A stretch of DNA of 64,000 nucleotides, taken from positions 22,589 to 86,588 of IMG/VR virus record IMGVR_UViG_3300024999_000067; one strand, 5' to 3'. The number at the start of each line of letters is the position of its first letter. The stretch's first letter is position 1. Of the stretch, positions 3,223 to 33,049 are shown piece after piece. The notes below the pieces were generated by a model, which did not search any database, was not told the DNA's origin, and saw only the letters and a program-made list of their open reading frames with translations. The DNA is from a virus. Made by a program: the position numbers and the translations under genes.

Positions 3223-4222
3223 TCACGTAGTGTTCTATGGTGGTGCAATCTCAACATTTAACGGTAAGATATTTATTTCCCACCCTGTTGATCTTGATCT
3301 GGAATGTTCTGTTCCAGCAGAAGACTTGTTAAACATTCTGAAGACGGTAGAAGACAAAGAAGTAACATTGACGGTGGACAAAAATCTGTTGAAGATTAAA
3401 TCCAGTGATGTAGAAGCAGAACTGTCCACCGATGTTTACGAAGACAATGTTGTTAAAACCATTAAGTTTCTGGACATTGGTAAATTTAACAAAACCGATT
3501 ACAAGAAGGCAGCCAAAGAATTCATCCAGGCATTGAACGATTGCCGTTTCAGTGTTGGTAAAGATGTATCCTGTTCCCATAATTCCTTCTGCATTCATGT
3601 GGTTGAGGAAGCTGTGGAATCTACTGACGGTTACAGGTGCTCAGAATATATAATGGATTCTGTTATGGATGAGATGCTTTTACCAGTATCTTCAGTAAAT
3701 TCTCTCTTGTCCTTTGCCCCTGTCTACTATGTACTTGACAATGGCTGGGCACATTTTATCGATGAAAACGATGTTTTCTTTTCTATATCGGTTATCAAGG
3801 GAACCTTTCCAGATGTTCCTAAGATCATGGATAGAGCAAAGGCAGAAGTGGAAGTGGCATTACCGATTCAGATAGCAAATATTCTAAGTGAATTTGGGAA
3901 GCTCTCTTCAGGGGAGACTGATATTTACAAGTTCATGGAAGTGGAAATTAAAGGTAAGGAAATTATCTGTAAGACGGATAAGCAGGGCTGTTCGGTAAAG
4001 AAAAAGATTCCTTTTCCCGAAAGCCAAACTGACCTAACATTCCTTATCAGTCCCACGTTGCTGAACAGTGTATTATCGAAAACGAATATTATCGGTATAA
4101 ACTATACCAGTAACATGGCATCCTTTTCTTCAAAGAACTTTACTCATGTAATGGTTCTGCCTGAAGGGAAGGAAGTGAAAGAGGAAGTATATACTGGAAC
4201 AGGTTCCGACGTCCCTTTTTAG
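3143..4222 (+). CDS. dnaN: DNA polymerase sliding clamp (beta-clamp-like)
   Basis: The 359-residue protein has the length and three-domain repeat layout of bacterial DnaN: strands such as VVFYGGAISTFNGKIFI in domain 1, SVNSLLSFAPVYYVLDNGWAHFI in domain 2, and a final NFTHVMVLP strand like the conserved C-terminal MP-[ML] end. A clamp rings DNA and tethers the polymerase. The start is supported by GGAGG six bases upstream. The clamp loader is encoded 5 kb downstream and the polymerase lies between, so the phage seems to carry its own processivity system. Similarity is by fold pattern, and sequence identity to cellular DnaN appears low. Confidence 0.75.
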   Translation: METKELVRIVNLLMVAVERKAVVSQYDHVVFYGGAISTFNGKIFISHPVDLDLECSVPAEDLLNILKTVEDKEVTLTVDKNLLKIKSSDVEAELSTDVYEDNVVKTIKFLDIGKFNKTDYKKAAKEFIQALNDCRFSVGKDVSCSHNSFCIHVVEEAVESTDGYRCSEYIMDSVMDEMLLPVSSVNSLLSFAPVYYVLDNGWAHFIDENDVFFSISVIKGTFPDVPKIMDRAKAEVEVALPIQIANILSEFGKLSSGETDIYKFMEVEIKGKEIICKTDKQGCSVKKKIPFPESQTDLTFLISPTLLNSVLSKTNIIGINYTSNMASFSSKNFTHVMVLPEGKEVKEEVYTGTGSDVPF

Positions 4223-4391: not shown

Positions 4392-5316
4392 GACAGTGCT
4401 GCGAAAGAAGATTGACAGTTGGCTGAAGTCTATTGCTAATGAAAGAATCCGTAAGATTGCAGAAGAGAATACAATAGTAACTGGTGGTTGCATAGCCAGT
4501 ATGCTGTTGGGAGAAAAGGTAAATGATTACGATATATATTTCCGTTCACAGTTAGCAGCAAAAGAGATTGCAGAGTATTACATTGGATTGTTTTCCATTA
4601 AGAACAGGGAAGGAATTCCATGTAAAATCTATGTAGAGTCTACTGAAGACAGGGTAAAGATTGTGGTTAAGTCTGCTGGTATTGCAAGTGCAGATGGAAC
4701 AGAAAAACCGTATGAATATTTTGAAGGATCACCAGAACAGAATGCTTCCAATTATGTATCAGAAGTAATGCAGGACCCAGGAGAAATTGAAGATAAGTTT
4801 GAAGAGGTATCGGAAAAGATTGAAGATCAGGCAGAAGATACCGATACCCAGTACAAGCCTGTCTTCCTGAGTACAAATGCAATTACTTTGAGTGGTAAGA
4901 TTCAGATGGTGTTCCGTTTCTTTGGGGAACCTGAAGAAATCCACAAGTATTACGACTTCATGCATTGTACAAATTACTGGACAAGTTGGGACGATAAACT
5001 GGAACTGAAGAAAGAAGCATTAGCCTGTTTGCTTTCCAGAGAATTGATTTATGTTGGCAGCAAATATCCGATATGCTCTATCTTTCGTGTCCGTAAGTTT
5101 ATTAAACGTAACTTTACCATTAATGCTGGGCAAATTCTGAAAATCTGTATGCAGATATCGGAACTGGATTTAACCAAGATAGAAGTATTGCAGGATCAGC
5201 TTACTGGTGTAGACTGTGCTTACTTTCTAGAAGTTATTGGTAAGTTGAAAGAGAAAGATCCAGAGGTTGTAAATTCAGCCTATCTTATTGAAATAATTGA
5301 TCGCATGTTTAATTAA
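4372..5316 (+). CDS. Nucleotidyltransferase-fold protein (poly(A) polymerase/CCA-transferase head-like)
   Basis: The 314-residue product shows VTGGCIASMLLGEKVNDYDI near residues 36-55: a GG loop followed by Asp-x-Asp, the metal-binding signature of the nucleotidyltransferase superfamily. An acidic, low-complexity stretch at about residues 130-160 (EIEDKFEEVSEKIEDQAED) interrupts the fold, and a helical C-terminal half follows. Similar proteins in phages are labelled as nucleotidyltransferases without known substrate. The position beside clamp and polymerase genes fits a role in nucleic acid metabolism, but none can be specified. Confidence 0.6.
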   Translation: MKTKTIKTVLRKKIDSWLKSIANERIRKIAEENTIVTGGCIASMLLGEKVNDYDIYFRSQLAAKEIAEYYIGLFSIKNREGIPCKIYVESTEDRVKIVVKSAGIASADGTEKPYEYFEGSPEQNASNYVSEVMQDPGEIEDKFEEVSEKIEDQAEDTDTQYKPVFLSTNAITLSGKIQMVFRFFGEPEEIHKYYDFMHCTNYWTSWDDKLELKKEALACLLSRELIYVGSKYPICSIFRVRKFIKRNFTINAGQILKICMQISELDLTKIEVLQDQLTGVDCAYFLEVIGKLKEKDPEVVNSAYLIEIIDRMFN

Positions 5317-5326
5317 TGGAGAAAAT

Positions 5327-5857
5327 ATGATTGATATAATGCTGGATCTTGAGACTATGGGAAATGGTAACAATGCTGCTATTGCCGCTATTGGTGCTGT
5401 AAACTTTGATCTTACTACTGGTGAAATAGGAGAAGGGTTCTATGAAGTAGTTGATCTGGAATCTTCTGTTAGACATGGTGGTGTTATGGATGTTTCTACC
5501 GTATTATGGTGGATGCAACAATCAGATACAGCAAGAGCCGAGTTTAAGCGGGAAGGGAAACATATACAAATGGCATTAGTGTCCTTCCAAACATATCTTG
5601 CATCTTTTACAGGGGAAGTAGCCTTATGGGGTAACGGTGCTGTTTTCGATAATGTAATTCTAAAATCGGCTTATGATCGTGGTGGATTGATTCTACCGTG
5701 GCACTTTAAAAACGATAGGTGTTACAGAACAATGCGGGCAATGCTCCCTGTTGTAGAATTGCCTGAGATTGCTGGTACCCATCATAGAGCTATTGATGAT
5801 GCAAGGTGGCAAGCCCAGTATCTTATTGAAGCATGGAAGTTAAGAGAACAAAATTAA
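5327..5857 (+). CDS. DEDD-family 3'-5' exonuclease
   Basis: The ATG at 5327 follows a GGAG site; an in-frame upstream start at 5297 would add ten residues inside the previous gene. The 176-residue product has Exo I (DLETMG), Exo II (GNGAVFDNVIL) and Exo III (HHRAIDDARWQAQYL) motifs with the four acidic residues and the His of the DEDDh class. Close relatives include the Rv2179c-like exonucleases. It could proofread, trim recombination ends or degrade RNA. The polymerase gene starts 24 bases downstream. Confidence 0.8.
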   Translation: MIDIMLDLETMGNGNNAAIAAIGAVNFDLTTGEIGEGFYEVVDLESSVRHGGVMDVSTVLWWMQQSDTARAEFKREGKHIQMALVSFQTYLASFTGEVALWGNGAVFDNVILKSAYDRGGLILPWHFKNDRCYRTMRAMLPVVELPEIAGTHHRAIDDARWQAQYLIEAWKLREQN

Positions 5858-5881
5858 TGGGGACTTTCCCAAGGTGAATTA

Positions 5882-8482
5882 ATGAAGATAAAGAGTTTCT
5901 GGAATGATGGGCCTGCCATCAGTGAGGATTGTGATTCCTGTGGTCTACACACAATCTGTAAATCACCATTCTCAAAACATTATGGTAATGGTAGACTGAA
6001 TGCTTTGATCATTACTGGTAAACCTTCTGCTATAGAGGACAGTAAAGGGTTTGGTTTCTCAGGGGAAACAATGGATACCATGAAGGAATTCTTTTCCAGT
6101 GTAGGAGTGAACCTGGAGAACAATTTCTGGAAAACATCCGCTGTTTCCTGTTACTGTAAAGGGGAAATAAAAGATGACCATATACTGAAATGTAAACCGA
6201 ATCTGATAGCCAAGATCAAGGAACTGAAACCGAAGTATATTCTAACTGTTGGGAATGCTGCAACGAAAGCGGTTCTTGGTAAGATAGGAAGGAAAACTCC
6301 ACAACTAGAAACTCTGGTTATGAGAGCTATTCCCGTACATGAATATGGTGCCTGGGTCTTGCCTATGCTGAACCCAGGCAAGATGAAGACAGAGAATCAG
6401 AAAGCTTATTTCGGCAGACTGGTTAAGTTTGTCATGAACGAAATAAAACAGAAGAAAGAATTGTTAAAGGTAAATCCATTTGAAAATGTAAAAGTCCTAA
6501 TCGAGTACAAGGATATTATAAATGGATTGGAAGACCTGTTATCCGATTCTGATTTCGTTTCCTCAATCGATATTGAAGGAACTGGTTTAAAACCACAGTA
6601 TGAAAAACACTGTATTACTTCTGTTGGTATATCTACCAGAAAGGGAACAATATCTTTTCCACTTGATCACAGTGAGGTTTCTTTTTCCGATCAAGCATAC
6701 GACAATATTGTTGAATTACTTGTGGAATATCTGGAAAGAGAAGATATAAAAAAGATTGCCCACAAGTTACAGTTTGACACAATGTGGTTAGAAACTATTC
6801 TTGGCTGTCACGTTAATGGATGGTTACAATGTACCAATATAAATCAACATCTTCTTGATCACAGAACAGGGGCCAAAGGATTGAAGGAACTTTGTTTCCT
6901 TAAATGGGGTATCAGAGATTACGATAAAAAAGCCGACAAGTATATTGAAGCAGACAGGCAGGGGGCAAAGGAACTCAACAGAATGCGGGAAATGCCCCTG
7001 TACGATCAATTACTCTATGTAGGTGCTGATGCCTATCTTACCCTTAAACTAAGCGATGCCGAGGACGAAGAATATCGGCAACTTGATTCTAAGAAAAAAC
7101 ATTACCCTCGTATCCTGTTTACAGAAAGTGCCAGAACTTTATGCACTATGCAAGAGAATGGTATTCCAATAAATGCGGAATATTATGTAAAGGCAGAAGC
7201 AGAAGTAACTGGTAAGATCCAGGATTTAGAAGAAAAGATAGCCAATGAACCGTATGTAAAGAAGTTTACCAATCTGTATCGAAAGAAATTTGAGCATTCA
7301 AAGCCAGCCGATTTGAAGAGACTGTTCTTTGAAGTGATGAAACTAGATGCTAAGAAACTGGGAACTACCGATGGTGGCAATATCTCTTTAGATGAAAAGG
7401 CATTGAAAGATATTGGTTTGCCCATATGTGAAAATATCCTGTCACTGAGAAAGTTATTGAAGGTACGGGATACATACCTGTCCCAGTTTGCAAGAGAAGA
7501 GGTTAATGGAAAGATTCATCCATTTTTTAATCTGACTATTGCCCGAAGTTTTAGGTCAAGTTCCAACCAACCGAATTTCCAGAACATTCCGAAGCGGGAT
7601 GATTATGCTAAGAAGATAACAAGAACTGGTATTGTAACTGAACCTGACTGTGGTATTGGTGAGATTGACTTTTCGGGAGTTGAGGTTTGTACATCGGCAG
7701 CGTATCATAAAGATCCAAACTTTATTGCATACCTGACTGTAGAAGGTTCCGATATGCATAGGGATAATGCTTGTGATATTTGGCAGGTACGTAAAGAGAA
7801 CCTAGATGAAGATGGAAAGATCAGATTCTATATAAAGAATCAATGGACATTCCCTCAGTTCTATGGGGATTACTGGGGAAGTTGTGGTCCTACTTTATGG
7901 GAAACTGCTATCGAGAAAGAGAAGTTTATTCTACGGGACGGTACTCCATTAGTGGAACACATGCATAATAAGGGAATCCATAATGTAGACGATTTCCTCA
8001 AGCATTGCAAGAAAGCCGAAGAGAAAATGTGGAATGAACGGTTTAAAGTTTATACTGCATGGAAGAAAGAAGTAAACGATTTCTATATTAAGTACGGTTA
8101 CGTGGAAACGTATTTAGGTTTCAGATTTTATGGTCTACTGGACAGAAAGCAGACAACCAATTACCCCATACAGGGAACAGCGTTTCATATCCTGCTGTGG
8201 TCTATCAACCGTATACAGGAGTTTATCAAGAAAGAGAAATTACGGTCATACCTTTGTGGTCAGATTCATGATTCTTTGGTGTTTCAGTGGTACCCAGAGG
8301 AACGTGATTACTTATTGACGGAGATGAATGAAGTATGTTCTAAGAGAGTGCTGAAGGAATTTGAATGGATCAACGTCCCTTTCAAAATTGATGTGGAATT
8401 GTCAAAGGTAAATGGTAATTTTGCAGGGTTATCTAAATATGTAAAATCGGGGGATATATGGGTACCGAAACCAAAGAAGTAA
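5882..8482 (+). CDS. Uracil-DNA-glycosylase-like / 3'-5' exonuclease / family A DNA polymerase fusion
   Basis: The 866-residue protein has three parts. Residues 1-190 resemble family 4/5 uracil-DNA glycosylase: Cys pattern CDSCGLHTIC and CYC...C for an Fe-S cluster, and ITGKPSAIEDSKGFGFSG as the uracil-pocket motif. The usual catalytic HP motif seems replaced by MLNPG, so excision activity is uncertain. Residues 220-390 hold proofreading motifs (DIEGT, KLQFDTM, YVGADAYLTLK). Residues 420-866 are the polymerase: motif A IDFSGVEV near 594, motif B KNQWTFPQFYG near 651, and motif C IHDSL near 795 (Ser where Glu is common). This is the likely replicative polymerase. It would work with the clamp and loader encoded on either side. 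Confidence 0.9.
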   Translation: MKIKSFWNDGPAISEDCDSCGLHTICKSPFSKHYGNGRLNALIITGKPSAIEDSKGFGFSGETMDTMKEFFSSVGVNLENNFWKTSAVSCYCKGEIKDDHILKCKPNLIAKIKELKPKYILTVGNAATKAVLGKIGRKTPQLETLVMRAIPVHEYGAWVLPMLNPGKMKTENQKAYFGRLVKFVMNEIKQKKELLKVNPFENVKVLIEYKDIINGLEDLLSDSDFVSSIDIEGTGLKPQYEKHCITSVGISTRKGTISFPLDHSEVSFSDQAYDNIVELLVEYLEREDIKKIAHKLQFDTMWLETILGCHVNGWLQCTNINQHLLDHRTGAKGLKELCFLKWGIRDYDKKADKYIEADRQGAKELNRMREMPLYDQLLYVGADAYLTLKLSDAEDEEYRQLDSKKKHYPRILFTESARTLCTMQENGIPINAEYYVKAEAEVTGKIQDLEEKIANEPYVKKFTNLYRKKFEHSKPADLKRLFFEVMKLDAKKLGTTDGGNISLDEKALKDIGLPICENILSLRKLLKVRDTYLSQFAREEVNGKIHPFFNLTIARSFRSSSNQPNFQNIPKRDDYAKKITRTGIVTEPDCGIGEIDFSGVEVCTSAAYHKDPNFIAYLTVEGSDMHRDNACDIWQVRKENLDEDGKIRFYIKNQWTFPQFYGDYWGSCGPTLWETAIEKEKFILRDGTPLVEHMHNKGIHNVDDFLKHCKKAEEKMWNERFKVYTAWKKEVNDFYIKYGYVETYLGFRFYGLLDRKQTTNYPIQGTAFHILLWSINRIQEFIKKEKLRSYLCGQIHDSLVFQWYPEERDYLLTEMNEVCSKRVLKEFEWINVPFKIDVELSKVNGNFAGLSKYVKSGDIWVPKPKK

Positions 8483-22408: not shown

Positions 22409-22609
22409 TGGTGAAAAAGAAATAGCTTTGGTAGGGCAGGAATTGACTACCAAAGCTATTCCAGCTTTAACATCTTCTCGTTCCAATGCCCAATCGGATA
22501 CGTCAATTCTTCCCTCATAGATAGTTTTGAATCTTGGCAAAATCTTTTCGCAAGAACCACAGTTTTCACATTTACTTTTATCCATTTTCAGAACGTGTTT
22601 ATAATACAA
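22403..22609 (-). CDS. Small ferredoxin
   Basis: The frame opens with TTG at 22609, seven bases after AAAGGAGA. The product has KCENCGSCEKILPRF (CxxCxxC) and NSCPTKAI (C-P) near the end, the ligands of one Fe-S cluster in single-cluster bacterial ferredoxins (3 Cys in the first group plus 1). An ATG eight residues on (MDKSKCENCG) is an alternative. An electron carrier as the last gene of a lysis block is unexpected; partners such as a phage redox enzyme are not seen here. Confidence 0.72.
   Translation of the reverse strand: MYYKHVLKMDKSKCENCGSCEKILPRFKTIYEGRIDVSDWALEREDVKAGIALVVNSCPTKAISFSPL
22411..22460 (-). terminator. Intrinsic terminator for the leftward block, inside the ferredoxin 3' end
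   Basis: A perfect 14-bp inverted repeat (AATAGCTTTGGTAG at 22421-22434 and its complement at 22447-22460) encloses a 12-base loop. Reading leftward, the stem is followed at once by TCTTTTTC, a U-run in RNA. Rightward there is no U-run, only A-rich sequence before the stem. It would stop late leftward transcription before it enters the replication genes. It lies within the last codons of the ferredoxin gene. Confidence 0.8.
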
Positions 22610-27554: not shown

Positions 27555-27974
27555 TCACACTACATCATCGATATCTACATTCATTACTTCTTCCTTGGAT
27601 TTTGCCTCTTTGATTTTCTCCTTAGCGGCAAAGTATCCATCCTTTACATGCTTCATAACAGGCATCGCGTCAAACTCCAGTACATCCATTACAGCAGACG
27701 CACCACCATATCCGGCAAGCATTTGAGTAACGTAGTTGTCCAGTCTGGCAATGATCATAGGATCTTTAATAATCCCAGAGGATACTGCATAGCATAGAAG
27801 CACCCCGCGAAGAACATCGGTTATATTATCTTCGCAATCTCCTATTTCTGCTGCTAGTTTCTCTCGCATTTTGATTTTCAAGAATCTTTCACGAGACAGT
27901 TTATCTAATTCAATATCAGTCTCTTCACCTGTAAGGTATTTGCCGTACACTTGAAATTCTTCTACTGGTAGCAT
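27555..27974 (-). CDS. Helical protein encoded after the reverse transcriptase, unknown function
   Basis: A GGGAGG site lies eight bases before the ATG. The 139-residue product is mainly helical with EETDIELDKLSRERFLKIK and CEDNITDVLRGVLLCYAVSS, and a Lys/Glu-rich tail. It overlaps the reverse transcriptase gene by 13 bases. An accessory role in the retroelement (Avd proteins are helical and of like size) was considered, but no Avd sequence pattern is visible. Confidence 0.5.
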   Translation of the reverse strand: MLPVEEFQVYGKYLTGEETDIELDKLSRERFLKIKMREKLAAEIGDCEDNITDVLRGVLLCYAVSSGIIKDPMIIARLDNYVTQMLAGYGGASAVMDVLEFDAMPVMKHVKDGYFAAKEKIKEAKSKEEVMNVDIDDVV

Positions 27975-28603
27975 AATCCTAACCTCCCTTGATGTGATTG
28001 TGGTAGACGACTCACCATTGCAGCGTTATTCAAAATAACAGACTTTAGTATTTTTATACTACTAGTCTTTTGTGAATGTGCAATTATAGATCCAACTGTA
28101 ATTATATTTCCTTTAAGTACTGCCTTCTTAAATTTACATAAACTATACTTACGGATCAATCTGTGAGTAGGCCACGTTCTATACCCAACAAAGTTTATAC
28201 CGTCAGCAACAGTTCTTTTCGACCATTTGGATAAATGCAGGTGTAGTCTAGTAAACAAATACTCTTCAATATTCTTTCTGGCCATGGAGGCTTCAGCAGA
28301 TGACATTCCTATTAGTACCATATCGTCAACATAGCGGACATACCTGCATATTTTAAGTTTTCTTTTAATATAATGATCTGCAGGATTTAGATAAATTAAA
28401 GCGTATAGCTGTGATAGTAAATTTCCTAATGGGATTCCCTTACCCATTCCTAGGCAAGTGTAAAATTGTTTCATTACGCTAAGCAGCTGTTCATCTTTTA
28501 TCTTATTTCTTATTAATTTTTCAAGAACTATTCTATCAATAGAAGGAAAGAATTTTCTTACGTCAAGATGAAGTGTGTAAAGACTTTTAGAACAATTTTT
28601 CAT
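27962..28603 (-). CDS. DGR-type reverse transcriptase, N-terminally truncated
   Basis: The 213-residue product has palm motif A (LHLDVRKFFPSID), motif 4 GIPLGNLLSQLYALIYLN, the catalytic YVRYVDDMVLIG and the later FVGYRTWPTHRLIRK block, as in diversity-generating retroelement enzymes. A full enzyme is about 300-400 residues and has finger motifs (a basic RT1/RT2 region) before motif A; these are absent. In frame before the ATG, the residues CDYAYFS still look like RT, then a TAG appears at about 28632. The gene therefore looks cut at its 5' end and is probably inactive, unless the sequence is misassembled. Confidence 0.82.
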   Translation of the reverse strand: MKNCSKSLYTLHLDVRKFFPSIDRIVLEKLIRNKIKDEQLLSVMKQFYTCLGMGKGIPLGNLLSQLYALIYLNPADHYIKRKLKICRYVRYVDDMVLIGMSSAEASMARKNIEEYLFTRLHLHLSKWSKRTVADGINFVGYRTWPTHRLIRKYSLCKFKKAVLKGNIITVGSIIAHSQKTSSIKILKSVILNNAAMVSRLPQSHQGRLGLCYQ

Positions 28604-28646
28604 AGAAAAGTAAGCGTAATCGCATAAGTTCTATATACTTATGCAT
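28587..28646 (-). other. Short leader frame with strong ribosome binding site before the truncated RT
   Basis: GAAGGAG lies six bases before ATG 28646. The frame encodes only 19 residues (MHKYIELMRLRLLFYEKLF) and ends inside the RT gene in a different frame. It may be the start of the gene that once stood here, left after the deletion that truncated the RT, or a coupling leader. The DNA also has an 8-bp inverted repeat (GCATAAGT/ACTTATGC). Confidence 0.3.
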
Positions 28647-28693
28647 TATTACTCCTTCTCTACTATACTTCTTTCCTGTAGACATATTACAGA

Positions 28694-28711
28694 GCCGCGC
28701 TATCGCGCGAC
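28694..28711 (-). other. G+C-rich hairpin after the DGR variable repeat
   Basis: Reading leftward, directly after the TAG stop of the target gene, the DNA forms GTCGCGC-GATA-GCGCGGC. This is a seven-pair stem (one G-T) with a GATA tetraloop. Hairpins or cruciforms with a GRNA loop just 3' of the variable repeat are a known requirement for efficient DGR retrohoming, e.g. in the Bordetella phage BPP-1. Its presence supports that a working DGR once acted here. Confidence 0.7.
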
Positions 28712-30360
28712 TAGACAGGGTAACAGGCGGAGCGACCACCATAGTGCGCGTTAGAGAAGGAACGGATGCTGCCCAGGTAACGGAGCCAAACCCCGGCAAG
28801 CGAGCCAGCGTTCCAGTTCCCACTACCTATAACGCATAACTGATCTCTAATGTACTGATAGAATCCATCTTTTCCAAATAAGTCTGTACCTGTGGTTGAA
28901 ATCCCTGAACTGTCTTTAGGAAAACCAATAGAAGTCAAGGCGTAGGAATTACCACTTGCTCCATTAGATAAAACTTGGTTTGTTCCGTTACCAAATAATT
29001 GAGTTACGGAAGAACCACCAGATGCAGCAATAAAAGGCATAGTAATAGCCTCCATCATTGCTGCAACTCCAACTGATCCCCAATGATCTGTGGCTAGAGT
29101 AGCTCCTGCAGTGAAAGATTTCATAGATACTGACTCTTTCGCTACATAAAAAGACCCTGTATAGATTGTTCCACCAGAAACCCATGCAGTATACCCAGTA
29201 GCATTAACTCCATCTAAAGTAAAATTAGTAGGATCAACTACAGTCACAGTAAACAATTTATCGTTTAGCTGCGTAGTTCCCACAATAGATGTAATATTAA
29301 CAATTTGTCCAGTAGTATATCCATGGGCTGCTGTGGTTGTGACCTGACATGGATTAGCTAACGTAATAGCAGATATGGCTTTAGTTGTTACAATGCTTGT
29401 CATTCCAATTAAAATCTGCCACATATTTCCATTTATATCAGATACACCACAAGCTTGTCCATTGTGCGTAGTTTTAGCAAATAGATTTCCAGATCCTGTT
29501 TTGGCACAATTTGGATATCCATCAGAAACATACAGGACTGTAGTATCATTAGTATCCCTTAGTGCGTTATTGTTGTTCCCTTTAGGAAAGTTTGTAGTAG
29601 CGGATGCCCACCAAGCGCAATTCGCAGTACCAGTCGCAGCTTGCCCATGCGCTAAAGAAAGCATAGCAAGTGCAGAACTCATGAATACAGATTGATTAAA
29701 AAATATACTTGAGTTATTTACAGCACCATTTACACCATCTCTCGCTTTCGCAGCAGTAAGGAAAGCATAATTTGCATTTATTCCTAATACTGACGTAAGA
29801 GCACTGATAGGATTATGATCTGATCCAGAAGAAAGTGGTAATCCATTCTTTATAGAACTTGCGATAAAACCAGTCCCCTTGGCGTTTTTACTGACTTGAT
29901 ACTTATCAATGAAGAATCCAGGCTGCTCTACACCACCATCAATAAATGCCCTATGTAACACGAATCCAGCAGCAGTCGCAGCAGCCCTATTAGCAAATGT
30001 TTCTGATCCGACAATATTAATATCGTTAGGAGTGTAAATTGAATAAGTAGGGTTTTCAGAATGGTTTATCCTGTAAAAGAACTTAGGAATCCAGACCATT
30101 ACGGAACCATCAGAGAACTGGTAGTTTCCATAATTAGGGGAAAGAGGATCGGAATATCCTGACATGGGGGTAAATCCAACAGGTAGTACAGCAGGATCAC
30201 AAACTCCTACTCCAAATCCAGTAGAACCTGGGAGTCCTATGGTCATTACATTTCCAAGTATGCCAGCATGCATCCAGCCAGGATTGCCAAGTGTATCTTG
30301 ACCGTAAACTTTTGCTCCATTGGTCGATATTGGGGCAGCCGAAGTATTAATGTTTGGCAT
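28711..30360 (-). CDS. DGR target protein with C-type-lectin/FGE-like fold (receptor-binding candidate)
   Basis: The 549-residue protein starts with a phage tail-tip-like segment (MPNINTSAAPISTNG). A formylglycine-enzyme/C-type-lectin fold follows (DGSVMVWIPKFFYRI, FIDKYQVS, GVNGAVNN, DINGNMWQILIG), which ends in the variable GGRSACYPV segment. Residues of about 345-415 look like an inserted beta domain (VTTTAAHGYTTGQIVNITSI, TLDGVNATGYTAW) of the E1-FCCH-like type seen in phage fibres. Such proteins display the variable surface at the tail tip to bind host receptors. The next gene upstream is an SGNH tail hydrolase. Confidence 0.82.
   Translation of the reverse strand: MPNINTSAAPISTNGAKVYGQDTLGNPGWMHAGILGNVMTIGLPGSTGFGVGVCDPAVLPVGFTPMSGYSDPLSPNYGNYQFSDGSVMVWIPKFFYRINHSENPTYSIYTPNDINIVGSETFANRAAATAAGFVLHRAFIDGGVEQPGFFIDKYQVSKNAKGTGFIASSIKNGLPLSSGSDHNPISALTSVLGINANYAFLTAAKARDGVNGAVNNSSIFFNQSVFMSSALAMLSLAHGQAATGTANCAWWASATTNFPKGNNNNALRDTNDTTVLYVSDGYPNCAKTGSGNLFAKTTHNGQACGVSDINGNMWQILIGMTSIVTTKAISAITLANPCQVTTTAAHGYTTGQIVNITSIVGTTQLNDKLFTVTVVDPTNFTLDGVNATGYTAWVSGGTIYTGSFYVAKESVSMKSFTAGATLATDHWGSVGVAAMMEAITMPFIAASGGSSVTQLFGNGTNQVLSNGASGNSYALTSIGFPKDSSGISTTGTDLFGKDGFYQYIRDQLCVIGSGNWNAGSLAGVWLRYLGSIRSFSNAHYGGRSACYPV
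28714..28830 (-). repeat. DGR variable repeat (VR) at the 3' end of the target gene
   Basis: The last 35 codons of the target gene encode GSGNWNAGSLAGVWLRYLG and SIRSFSNAHYGGRSACYPV. Compared with usual DGR repeats (NN-rich, e.g. W-N-N-G-S-N-A-G-V), the Leu, Tyr, Gly, Ser, Ile, Phe, Ala and His codons stand where template Asn codons would be. Almost all of these codons end in C or T, as expected if AAC/AAT template codons were changed at their A bases. The G+C-rich end CTCCGCCTGTTACCCTGTC could be the initiation-of-homing sequence. No template copy was found in the window. Confidence 0.72.
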
Positions 30361-30361
30361 A

Positions 30362-33049
30362 TCAAACTCCTAGGTATAGATTTTCATTGTTTATTGTAAG
30401 TTCTACAAAGTTTACAGATATGTATGGTGGTAGCCCTAAAACACGGTCTACTCTTAGTTGGTCGGCGAAACTAAGAGGTGTTCTGTAGACCGCCATGCCC
30501 CTATCCCCGATCCGTATCTTCGCTGTCGGCACCAGCGCAGCCAGATCGACACTGGCGTTGCCGGTGAACTCGGGGATGAGCTGAAAGTCTCTGCCGAGGG
30601 GGGCCTGAAAGTTGCCGACTGGGAAGGCTGTACCATCGAATGCGCCGTCTATGCCGAGGGGTCCGGGAACAACAACAGGAGTGCTCTCGGCTTTGGCAAA
30701 ATCAAAAATTGTCCCATTGAATACGCCCACTCCATCAGTTTTACTGCCGATAAAAATAGTCTCTCCCCAGCCGATTGCGGCGGTAACTGTCTCGTCGGTA
30801 TCAGTTGCGCCGTTCAGGATCATTGTTGTCCCTGTGGGTGTGTGATCAATCACTAGAGTGTTGATCTCGTTCAGCGCCACTGAGCCTGATGAAGTCAATA
30901 TCGCGGACCCGCCGCCCGAATAAACAATTTTGTTCAGAGCCGAGATATAAATACCATTTGTTCCATCAGACAACAGCCATTGCTCTGTGTCGGCCAGGTT
31001 GGGGATAAACTTTATACTGATTTCGTCGCGTCCGCTCAGTCCAGTGTCCGTCAGGGTGTCAGCAATATTTGTCTCCCCAGGAATTGATACAACGCCATCA
31101 ATTGTGTGATAATTACTCGCCGCCCCGGTCCACACAACATCTCCGTCAGATACAGGGGCAGAATTATCAGGGAATGTGACGGCATCAGCAGAAGTTGTCC
31201 CGCCAGTCGTGCAGGTAAACCATCTCTTAATGCTGTCTGAGCATACAGCAGAGATCTTATCTCCGATGGAGTATGCAGTTGATCTCCTGGATGGTAAGTG
31301 TGTGTCAAATATTTTATTGCCATCAACAGTGGTGTATGGCTGCAATGTTACGGACTGGTTCGGAGATAGTATGGCTATTCCTGCGGCAATGGCCAGGTGG
31401 CCGGCTGAATTAGAATGGAGACCATCTGAGGAGTCGTAGGCAGCTAATATATTAATGGTTCCAGGATCACGGAGGATCTCATACAAATCAATCTTGTCAC
31501 GGTCTAGCGTCCTCACCCATGCGCTGTATGCCTCTGCCCTTGACTGTTTGTCTGCGGTCCAGCCAGAATAATTTCCAAACGGTGGAATTGTACAGATAAT
31601 CGGATGGATAGATGCTGCATCAGCCTTAGCAAGCATTGAGTTGAGCGATGCTTGCATGTCTGCCAAGGTCCGTGCAGTATTAATCACATCATTAACACCA
31701 CCCATTATCAGCACTGCAATCGGAGCACCAGCAACAACGTCAGTGGCAAACCGAGTATCAAGATCAGCCAAAGTCTGCCCGGAGATACCAGATTTAACCA
31801 TCCCTGTTATCCCGATGATTTGACCGAGATGCGTGATATATGTTCCGGTGGCTGTGTAGGAATCTCCAATAGCTACAGACTTGTTGAGTTTGTTGTACTG
31901 GACAGTGTCATGCAGCACAGATTTAGTGGCACTGGTGGTTTTGATATACTCGAATGGCATCAACCGTGGCCGGCCTGTAATAATCTCAGCTTGATATCCA
32001 GTAACTGTAAACGCCTTATTGGAATTTGTTGGGTATGCAATAACCCCAAAATTTCTGTTTGCTGCGCCAGCAGTAGTGGTGCGGACCGCAGAACATTTGT
32101 ACGTTCCATCTGGTTGCAACTCAGGGATATTTGCAACTGTGGTTATGTTAGCATCTATACTGAGCATCAGGTCGCTATTAACGTCAGTTGTGGAGACCCC
32201 AATACGTGGGACCGAATCGTCTGCCATCTTGACAAAACAGGAAAATCTGTACACATATCCAGTCACGGTGGTTAATTGCTTAAACGCTGACCGGAATGTA
32301 GCTGATTCGGGGAAAAGTAGAGCATTAACAAAACCGGCAAGCGAGGTGACAGTTACATTTGCGGTCGTGGAGTTGAGATCGGCTTTGCCGTTTGTAAACT
32401 CTGACTCTAATAGCAGATTCTTCGCAATCCTACTGCCTTTAATAGCTGGAGATAGTCCACCAGAGGAATACACAGCCGACATATCAGCATCAGTGCCACT
32501 GTAATCTGCTACAGCCGTTGTAGGTGCGTCAATGGTCAACGCCCCGGTTGTTACAGCGCCTGTGGAGCTTATCCGGTAAAGCACACCACCCGGGAGGGAG
32601 AATCCGTTCTCATTGACATAGTTCGTCCCGCTCCCGTCCAGCCTTTCGGTAATTGTCGTACCCACCAGCCCTGTCAGGTGATGACCATTACCCGAGGCGT
32701 CAAGCTCCGTAGCCTGGCCGACATTAATCCCCTTCCAACTCGCCCACCTCACACCATCCCGGAACACATCAATATCCCAACAATCCGGCCCAGGGAATGT
32801 CAGCGTACCATTCACGGTACATGTCGGAGCGTCGCCGGAGGCTGTGATGGTGTCGGTGACCAACAGGCCGGGGCAGGGTGAGCTGCCCGCGCCGAGGAAG
32901 CCGCTGGACTTTACTTGCTGGGTGGTGTGGTTGGCATGAGGATATCTGGCGACGAGCTTGCCGTCTGTTACAGTAGTCTTGTAATAAGCAAGCAGGGTAT
33001 CCCGATTAGGAAGTGATCTTCTATTATTAAGTAAACCAAAGTTTAGCAT
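30362..33049 (-). CDS. Tail protein with SGNH/GDSL hydrolase and LamG-like domains
   Basis: The 895-residue protein has a tail-associated N-terminus (MLNFGLLNNRRSLPNRDTLL), a beta-rich domain with a LamG-like DASGNGHHLTGL (residues 115-330), and an SGNH hydrolase from about residue 385: VAIGDSYTATG (Ser), SGISGQTLADL (Gly), IMGGVNDV (Asn), DGLHSNSAGH (Asp-His). A C-terminal LamG-like domain follows (about 650-810). SGNH enzymes on phage tails remove acetyl groups from surface polysaccharides. G+C content of this gene is well above its neighbours, except at the two ends. Confidence 0.85.
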   Translation of the reverse strand: MLNFGLLNNRRSLPNRDTLLAYYKTTVTDGKLVARYPHANHTTQQVKSSGFLGAGSSPCPGLLVTDTITASGDAPTCTVNGTLTFPGPDCWDIDVFRDGVRWASWKGINVGQATELDASGNGHHLTGLVGTTITERLDGSGTNYVNENGFSLPGGVLYRISSTGAVTTGALTIDAPTTAVADYSGTDADMSAVYSSGGLSPAIKGSRIAKNLLLESEFTNGKADLNSTTANVTVTSLAGFVNALLFPESATFRSAFKQLTTVTGYVYRFSCFVKMADDSVPRIGVSTTDVNSDLMLSIDANITTVANIPELQPDGTYKCSAVRTTTAGAANRNFGVIAYPTNSNKAFTVTGYQAEIITGRPRLMPFEYIKTTSATKSVLHDTVQYNKLNKSVAIGDSYTATGTYITHLGQIIGITGMVKSGISGQTLADLDTRFATDVVAGAPIAVLIMGGVNDVINTARTLADMQASLNSMLAKADAASIHPIICTIPPFGNYSGWTADKQSRAEAYSAWVRTLDRDKIDLYEILRDPGTINILAAYDSSDGLHSNSAGHLAIAAGIAILSPNQSVTLQPYTTVDGNKIFDTHLPSRRSTAYSIGDKISAVCSDSIKRWFTCTTGGTTSADAVTFPDNSAPVSDGDVVWTGAASNYHTIDGVVSIPGETNIADTLTDTGLSGRDEISIKFIPNLADTEQWLLSDGTNGIYISALNKIVYSGGGSAILTSSGSVALNEINTLVIDHTPTGTTMILNGATDTDETVTAAIGWGETIFIGSKTDGVGVFNGTIFDFAKAESTPVVVPGPLGIDGAFDGTAFPVGNFQAPLGRDFQLIPEFTGNASVDLAALVPTAKIRIGDRGMAVYRTPLSFADQLRVDRVLGLPPYISVNFVELTINNENLYLGV

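Follow-up and report, generated by a model that had tools for sequence, protein, structure and literature searches.

Remnant of a phage diversity-generating retroelement, probably broken by a single internal loss of about 1 kb

Described systems and the layout of the locus

In Bordetella phage BPP-1, the diversity-generating retroelement (DGR) follows the order mtd with its variable repeat (VR), avd, template repeat (TR) and brt, with a hairpin after the VR. In the reconstituted BPP-1 system, inactivating the reverse transcriptase (RT), Avd or TR singly drops homing to ~1e-9 (PMC12875486). The laboratory phage BPP-1 delta-ATR lacks the stretch between avd position 48 and brt position 882, and its VR is still a recipient when Avd, TR and RT are supplied in trans (PMC3240598). 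Inactivated DGRs have already been described. Strains of Treponema denticola have VR genes left but no RT or TR (PMC4891356), a survey found DGR RT genes cut short by insertions, nonsense mutations or frameshifts (PMC3521204), and Nanoarchaeota carry RT-less VR fragments that are possible fossils (PMC4372165). Those cases are cellular or involve other lesions, whereas the locus described here is a phage cassette with one Avd-to-RT deletion and both stubs readable. It is a clean natural example of an inactivated DGR. The deletion is closely similar in kind to that of delta-ATR, although delta-ATR was engineered and most of its RT was removed, while the palm and the C-terminal part remain here.

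We analyzed a window of 64,000 nt, positions 22589 to 86588 of the 86,588-base record IMGVR_UViG_3300024999_000067, which is one metagenome-derived record. The window encodes the tailed-phage genes for a tape measure, terminase, major head protein, DNA polymerase and endolysin. On the minus strand, we found a target gene with a VR, a GATA-loop hairpin, an avd stub, an RT remnant and a downstream gene, in that order. This arrangement is like that of BPP-1, which is itself intact. The target, hairpin and RT named in the original prediction were all found again, and the RT open reading frame (ORF) lies ~108 bases past the target gene, as had been reported.

An IMG/VR protein search with the RT returned one close relative, IMGVR_UViG_3300025000_000221 (here L002; ~60 to 62% identity), and a search with the target gene also led to this contig. 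L002 has a complete cassette consisting of a VR (4788-4899) in the target gene, a hairpin, Avd (4942-5346), a TR (5378-5489), an RT (5551-6726) and then the downstream gene. We found that 20/20 of the VR/TR differences in L002 fall at template adenines. Its Avd scored above the cutoff for Pfam bAvd and matched the NCBIfam Avd model below that model's cutoff. L002 resembles the window in having a homologous target with a VR, hairpin, Avd, RT and downstream gene in the same order, and it differs from the window in having a full Avd (134 aa), a 112-nt TR and a full RT. The downstream gene (27555-27974, minus strand; 139 aa) occupies the same place in L002 and bounds the shared module at its far end; a search with this gene as the query returned no relatives. 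We concluded that the locus is a homologous, derived DGR that has been naturally inactivated in a phage.

The receptor gene and its variable repeat

The DGR target gene (28711-30360, minus strand) encodes a putative tail receptor protein of 549 aa that is 69 to 72% identical to the L002 target. The VR-like motif NWNAGSLAGVWLRYLGSIRSFSNAHYGGRSACYPV closes this ORF. The protein had been labeled C-type-lectin-like. This label did not hold up, as the Pfam match covers an FCCH-like insert only and the predicted structure has a mean pLDDT of 27. In the register of the 112-nt TR of L002, the VR spans 28725 to 28836 on the minus strand. Since the window has no TR of its own, we scored its VR against the TR of L002. 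We found changes at 20 of the 31 template-A positions. At non-A positions, 5/44 sites were changed at codon positions 1 and 2, and 11/37 were changed at third positions, the latter as expected from ordinary synonymous divergence. The excess of change at A over all non-A sites was significant (Fisher p ~1e-5). Thus, relative to the L002 TR, the VR lies at the 3' end of the target gene with adenine-directed changes. Because it differs from this TR mainly at adenines, the VR was once actively diversified, and the sequence pattern indicates that the element worked in the recent ancestry of the window phage.

Just past the VR, we found a hairpin/cruciform element with a GATA loop (28693-28712, minus strand; fold -8.7 kcal/mol, z -2.4), and the same element is present in L002. 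Its loop fits the 5'-GRNA loop consensus of the DGR hairpin (PMC3240598), so a GRNA-loop hairpin lies downstream of the VR. The intact receptor gene presumably remains in use.

Reverse transcriptase, Avd and template repeat

The RT remnant (27962-28621, minus strand) comprises palm motifs A and B, YVDD and the C-terminal part, and the fingers are missing. Its ORF (27962-28603, minus strand) carries LDVRKFF, GIPLGNLLSQ and YVDD. The dipeptide SQ in motif 4 serves as a criterion for DGR RTs (PMC3521204). The remnant has it (GNLLSQ), together with YVDD, and its best matches are DGR RTs, which places it in the DGR clade. The original prediction described an RT that keeps motif A and YVDD and lacks the finger region, and proposed alignment with full DGR RTs. 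In that alignment, homology of the window begins at L002 residue 145, residues 1 to 144 are unmatched, and the description is confirmed. The retained part aligns from ~residue 119 onward of the 328 residues of the solved DGR-type RT 8ub7, which we take to be the BPP-1 RT. Thus, the full-length RT with fingers that a functional DGR requires is absent. The first in-frame ATG is at 28603, ~12 codons ahead of motif A. RT-like residues had also been reported above this ATG, and we recovered them up to the D at 28621, with an in-frame TAG at 28631-28633. These residues (DYAYFS) align with DCAYHA of L002 and stop at the deletion junction.

What remains of the RT is well preserved. Across 96 non-redundant intact RTs, 38 columns are conserved at a level of at least 95%. 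The remnant differs at one of these columns, and intact RTs, when left out, differ at 0.53 on average. It has no stop or frameshift across 213 codons. This lack of decay suggests that the deletion, if real, was recent. A long-dead gene would not look so intact; an assembly error would.

The prediction that no Avd gene is present was correct in that most of avd is gone, but the first ~20 codons survive at 28617-28685 (minus strand) and match the N terminus of the L002 Avd. The ORF at 28587-28685 (minus strand) opens with MSTGKKYSREGVIMHKYIELMRL, compared with MLKTYSRDGVVPHKFIETMKL at the L002 Avd N terminus (63% identity over 19 aa), and continues beyond the homology to a stop at 28587. Of the 134 Avd codons, ~20 are left, short of the Avd that a functional DGR requires. 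Homology to the L002 Avd ends at residue 21 (28617) and homology to its RT resumes at residue 145 (28621), within 5 bases. The avd stub and RT are in different frames and so do not form a fusion protein.

We also found no TR, as predicted, in the 86.6-kb record, of which both the window and the rest were searched. An A-tolerant scan gave a best match of 10 mismatches in the window, within the range of shuffled VR controls (8 to 12), and 13 or more mismatches in the left flank. The L002 TR, divergent as it is, served as a positive control and gave a score of 3. A DNA search of the whole record matched the VR itself only, and the record holds no second RT. Thus, the template repeat required by a functional DGR is lacking from the 86.6-kb record. 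No terminal repeat was found in these 86.6 kb. The record may be incomplete, and a TR or RT could lie beyond it.

In L002 coordinates, the sequence absent from the window is 5005-5982, or 978 bases. These bases cover Avd residues 22 to 134, the TR, the spacer and RT residues 1 to 144, or the first third of the enzyme. One loss of ~978 bp relative to L002 therefore explains everything that is missing, which supports the predicted deletion of a segment with Avd, TR and the RT N terminus. Assuming that the immediate ancestor had an intact RT N terminus, the locus is very likely the remnant of a phage DGR inactivated by one internal deletion of ~1 kb. From aligned relatives, we placed the deletion junction at 28616-28623 (minus strand), where GCGATTAC fits either reading, MRL in Avd or (S)DY in RT. 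At the Avd end of the deletion, relatives have MRLL or MKLL, and at the RT end they have SDYA or a like sequence. The codons ATG CGA TTA C.. for Avd and AGC GAT TAC for RT have GCGATTAC in common, and this is the sequence at the window junction. As both sides contain it, a deletion by 8-bp microhomology is plausible, with the junction and the microhomology both read from relatives that are ~60% identical. Searches of viral and genome collections with TR-like and Avd-derived DNA patterns returned no near relative with an intact cassette.

In the window sequence, Avd codon ~21 runs into RT codon ~145 in a different frame, and the whole TR is lacking. According to this model, illegitimate recombination at a short repeat (~8 bp) would have produced this join. 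The receptor would then stay fixed at the present VR sequence, unless ordinary mutation changes it or a cognate DGR rescues it in trans. With the template, Avd and RT fingers all gone, the phage would be unable to mutate its receptor on its own, and self-mutation of the receptor has probably been lost. The prediction that diversity is frozen thus stands in the sense that the phage on its own would be unable to diversify the receptor. It goes too far in that the VR and hairpin remain, and rescue in trans is conceivable, as with BPP-1 delta-ATR. The window phage is a natural counterpart of that laboratory phage, and its loss of targeted hypermutation looks recent.

We considered whether the deletion is an artifact. 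The prediction had offered assembly collapse of TR and VR as an alternative. Collapse would leave an intact RT start and a junction inside the repeat. Instead, the 3' end of the VR, the stop codon and the hairpin are kept and the junction joins Avd to RT, so we rejected this explanation. More generally, the living phage could have a full DGR, with Avd and RT wrongly joined in the assembly or a minority deletion variant picked up. Assemblies are known to break at DGR variable loci (PMC8008677), the loosely comparable contig L073 looks chimeric, and the undecayed RT is consistent with a molecule still intact in the very recent past. However, the junction lies outside TR and VR, and Avd and RT share no apparent long repeat on which an assembler could go astray, just the inferred 8 bp. 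Gene order also continues into the downstream gene common to L002, and deletions that are comparable but have different endpoints are found in the unrelated records L148, L066 and L037. We consider an assembly or chimera artifact improbable.

A real deletion might still leave the element working. The persistence of the VR 3' end and hairpin would fit a VR still diversified in trans by a DGR in a host prophage, a co-infecting phage or a missing part of the genome, and the VR of BPP-1 delta-ATR does act as a recipient when a donor supplies Avd-TR-RT in trans (PMC3240598). The donor TR would, however, have to resemble the window VR; no TR or RT was found within the 86.6 kb, and no matching TR/VR pattern was found in viral or genome collections, which leaves this explanation with very little probability. 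It is harder still to credit that the RT remnant has a function of its own, for instance as the palm-only partner of another factor. Its 213-codon open frame with intact catalytic motifs would be in keeping with this, but recent loss explains the open frame equally well. The fingers and the entire TR are missing, the first in-frame ATG is just ~12 codons before motif A, and full RT length is nearly universal in the clade. We therefore favor natural inactivation by the internal deletion.

Deletions, losses and module swaps among relatives

We found that the N-terminal part of the RT is kept in 158 of the 161 related RT loci that could be evaluated. The sample, drawn from genome and viral collections, holds the 80 best-scoring loci of each, with some redundancy, and the numbers are therefore counts and not a rate. 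L148 is included in the 158 even though it has lost most of Avd and the TR. The exceptions are L037, L066 and L073. Among the best 60 named phage records, all keep the RT from query residue 41 or earlier.

The viral record L148 has a second Avd-to-RT deletion with other endpoints (L148:1490-2547), in which Avd residues 1 to 26 are joined to the RT at ~residue 16 (Bise RT numbering) and no TR is present. In L066 (a Desulfuromonadales MAG), ~118 residues of Avd are fused in frame to ~residue 178 of the RT, and motif A is lost. The fusion is a 315-aa ORF behind a VR-type target (L066:4656-5603), with matches to Pfam bAvd and, just below the cutoff, RVT_1. In L037 (a Helicobacteraceae MAG; 3230-3400), the TR-like, nearly unmutated VR of the target runs directly into RT residue ~129. 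Altogether, the span around the TR is lost and the target gene kept in four records (the window, L148, L066 and L037), and the RT stubs are undecayed in the three that were scored (the window, L148 and L066). Loss of the mutagenic core with the receptor kept might be a recurrent, selected "receptor locking" step in this clade, perhaps promoted by the element's own cDNA synthesis, although we regard this as unlikely. With these other deletion derivatives, it becomes testable in metagenome reads how frequently phages lose a DGR after they have a receptor variant that works, and whether locked and mutable forms occur side by side.

Other records differ in other ways. A VR-type target is present in L008 (5674-7494) with no RT in the 41-kb record, a possible orphan target or complete DGR loss. 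A DGR RT in L086 (2300-3800) has an apparent frameshift, which is either a sequencing error or a mark of another inactivated element. Elsewhere in the L037 genome, a different contig carries a second, more distant RT with an open frame of 374 aa.

The window phage has close backbone relatives (L015 to L018 and L020), and we compared the receptor region in L015. L015 is 88% identical in the neighboring tail genes, and another gene set replaces the target and DGR (L015:7330-10246). By eye, the first gene of this replacement module is polysaccharide-deacetylase-like. The presence of another module in the same place shows that these phages exchange the receptor module. Losing or replacing it may belong to the normal turnover of receptors.

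Elsewhere in the window, a tail-region gene at 30362-33049 encodes a GDSL lipase domain and has a G+C content of up to 0.57, compared with ~0.39 around it; the high G+C suggests recent acquisition. A 606-aa protein encoded at 1077-2897 has a queuine tRNA-ribosyltransferase-like N terminus. Its middle resembles an intein with an endonuclease, where the one model match is a weak match to ribonucleotide reductase.
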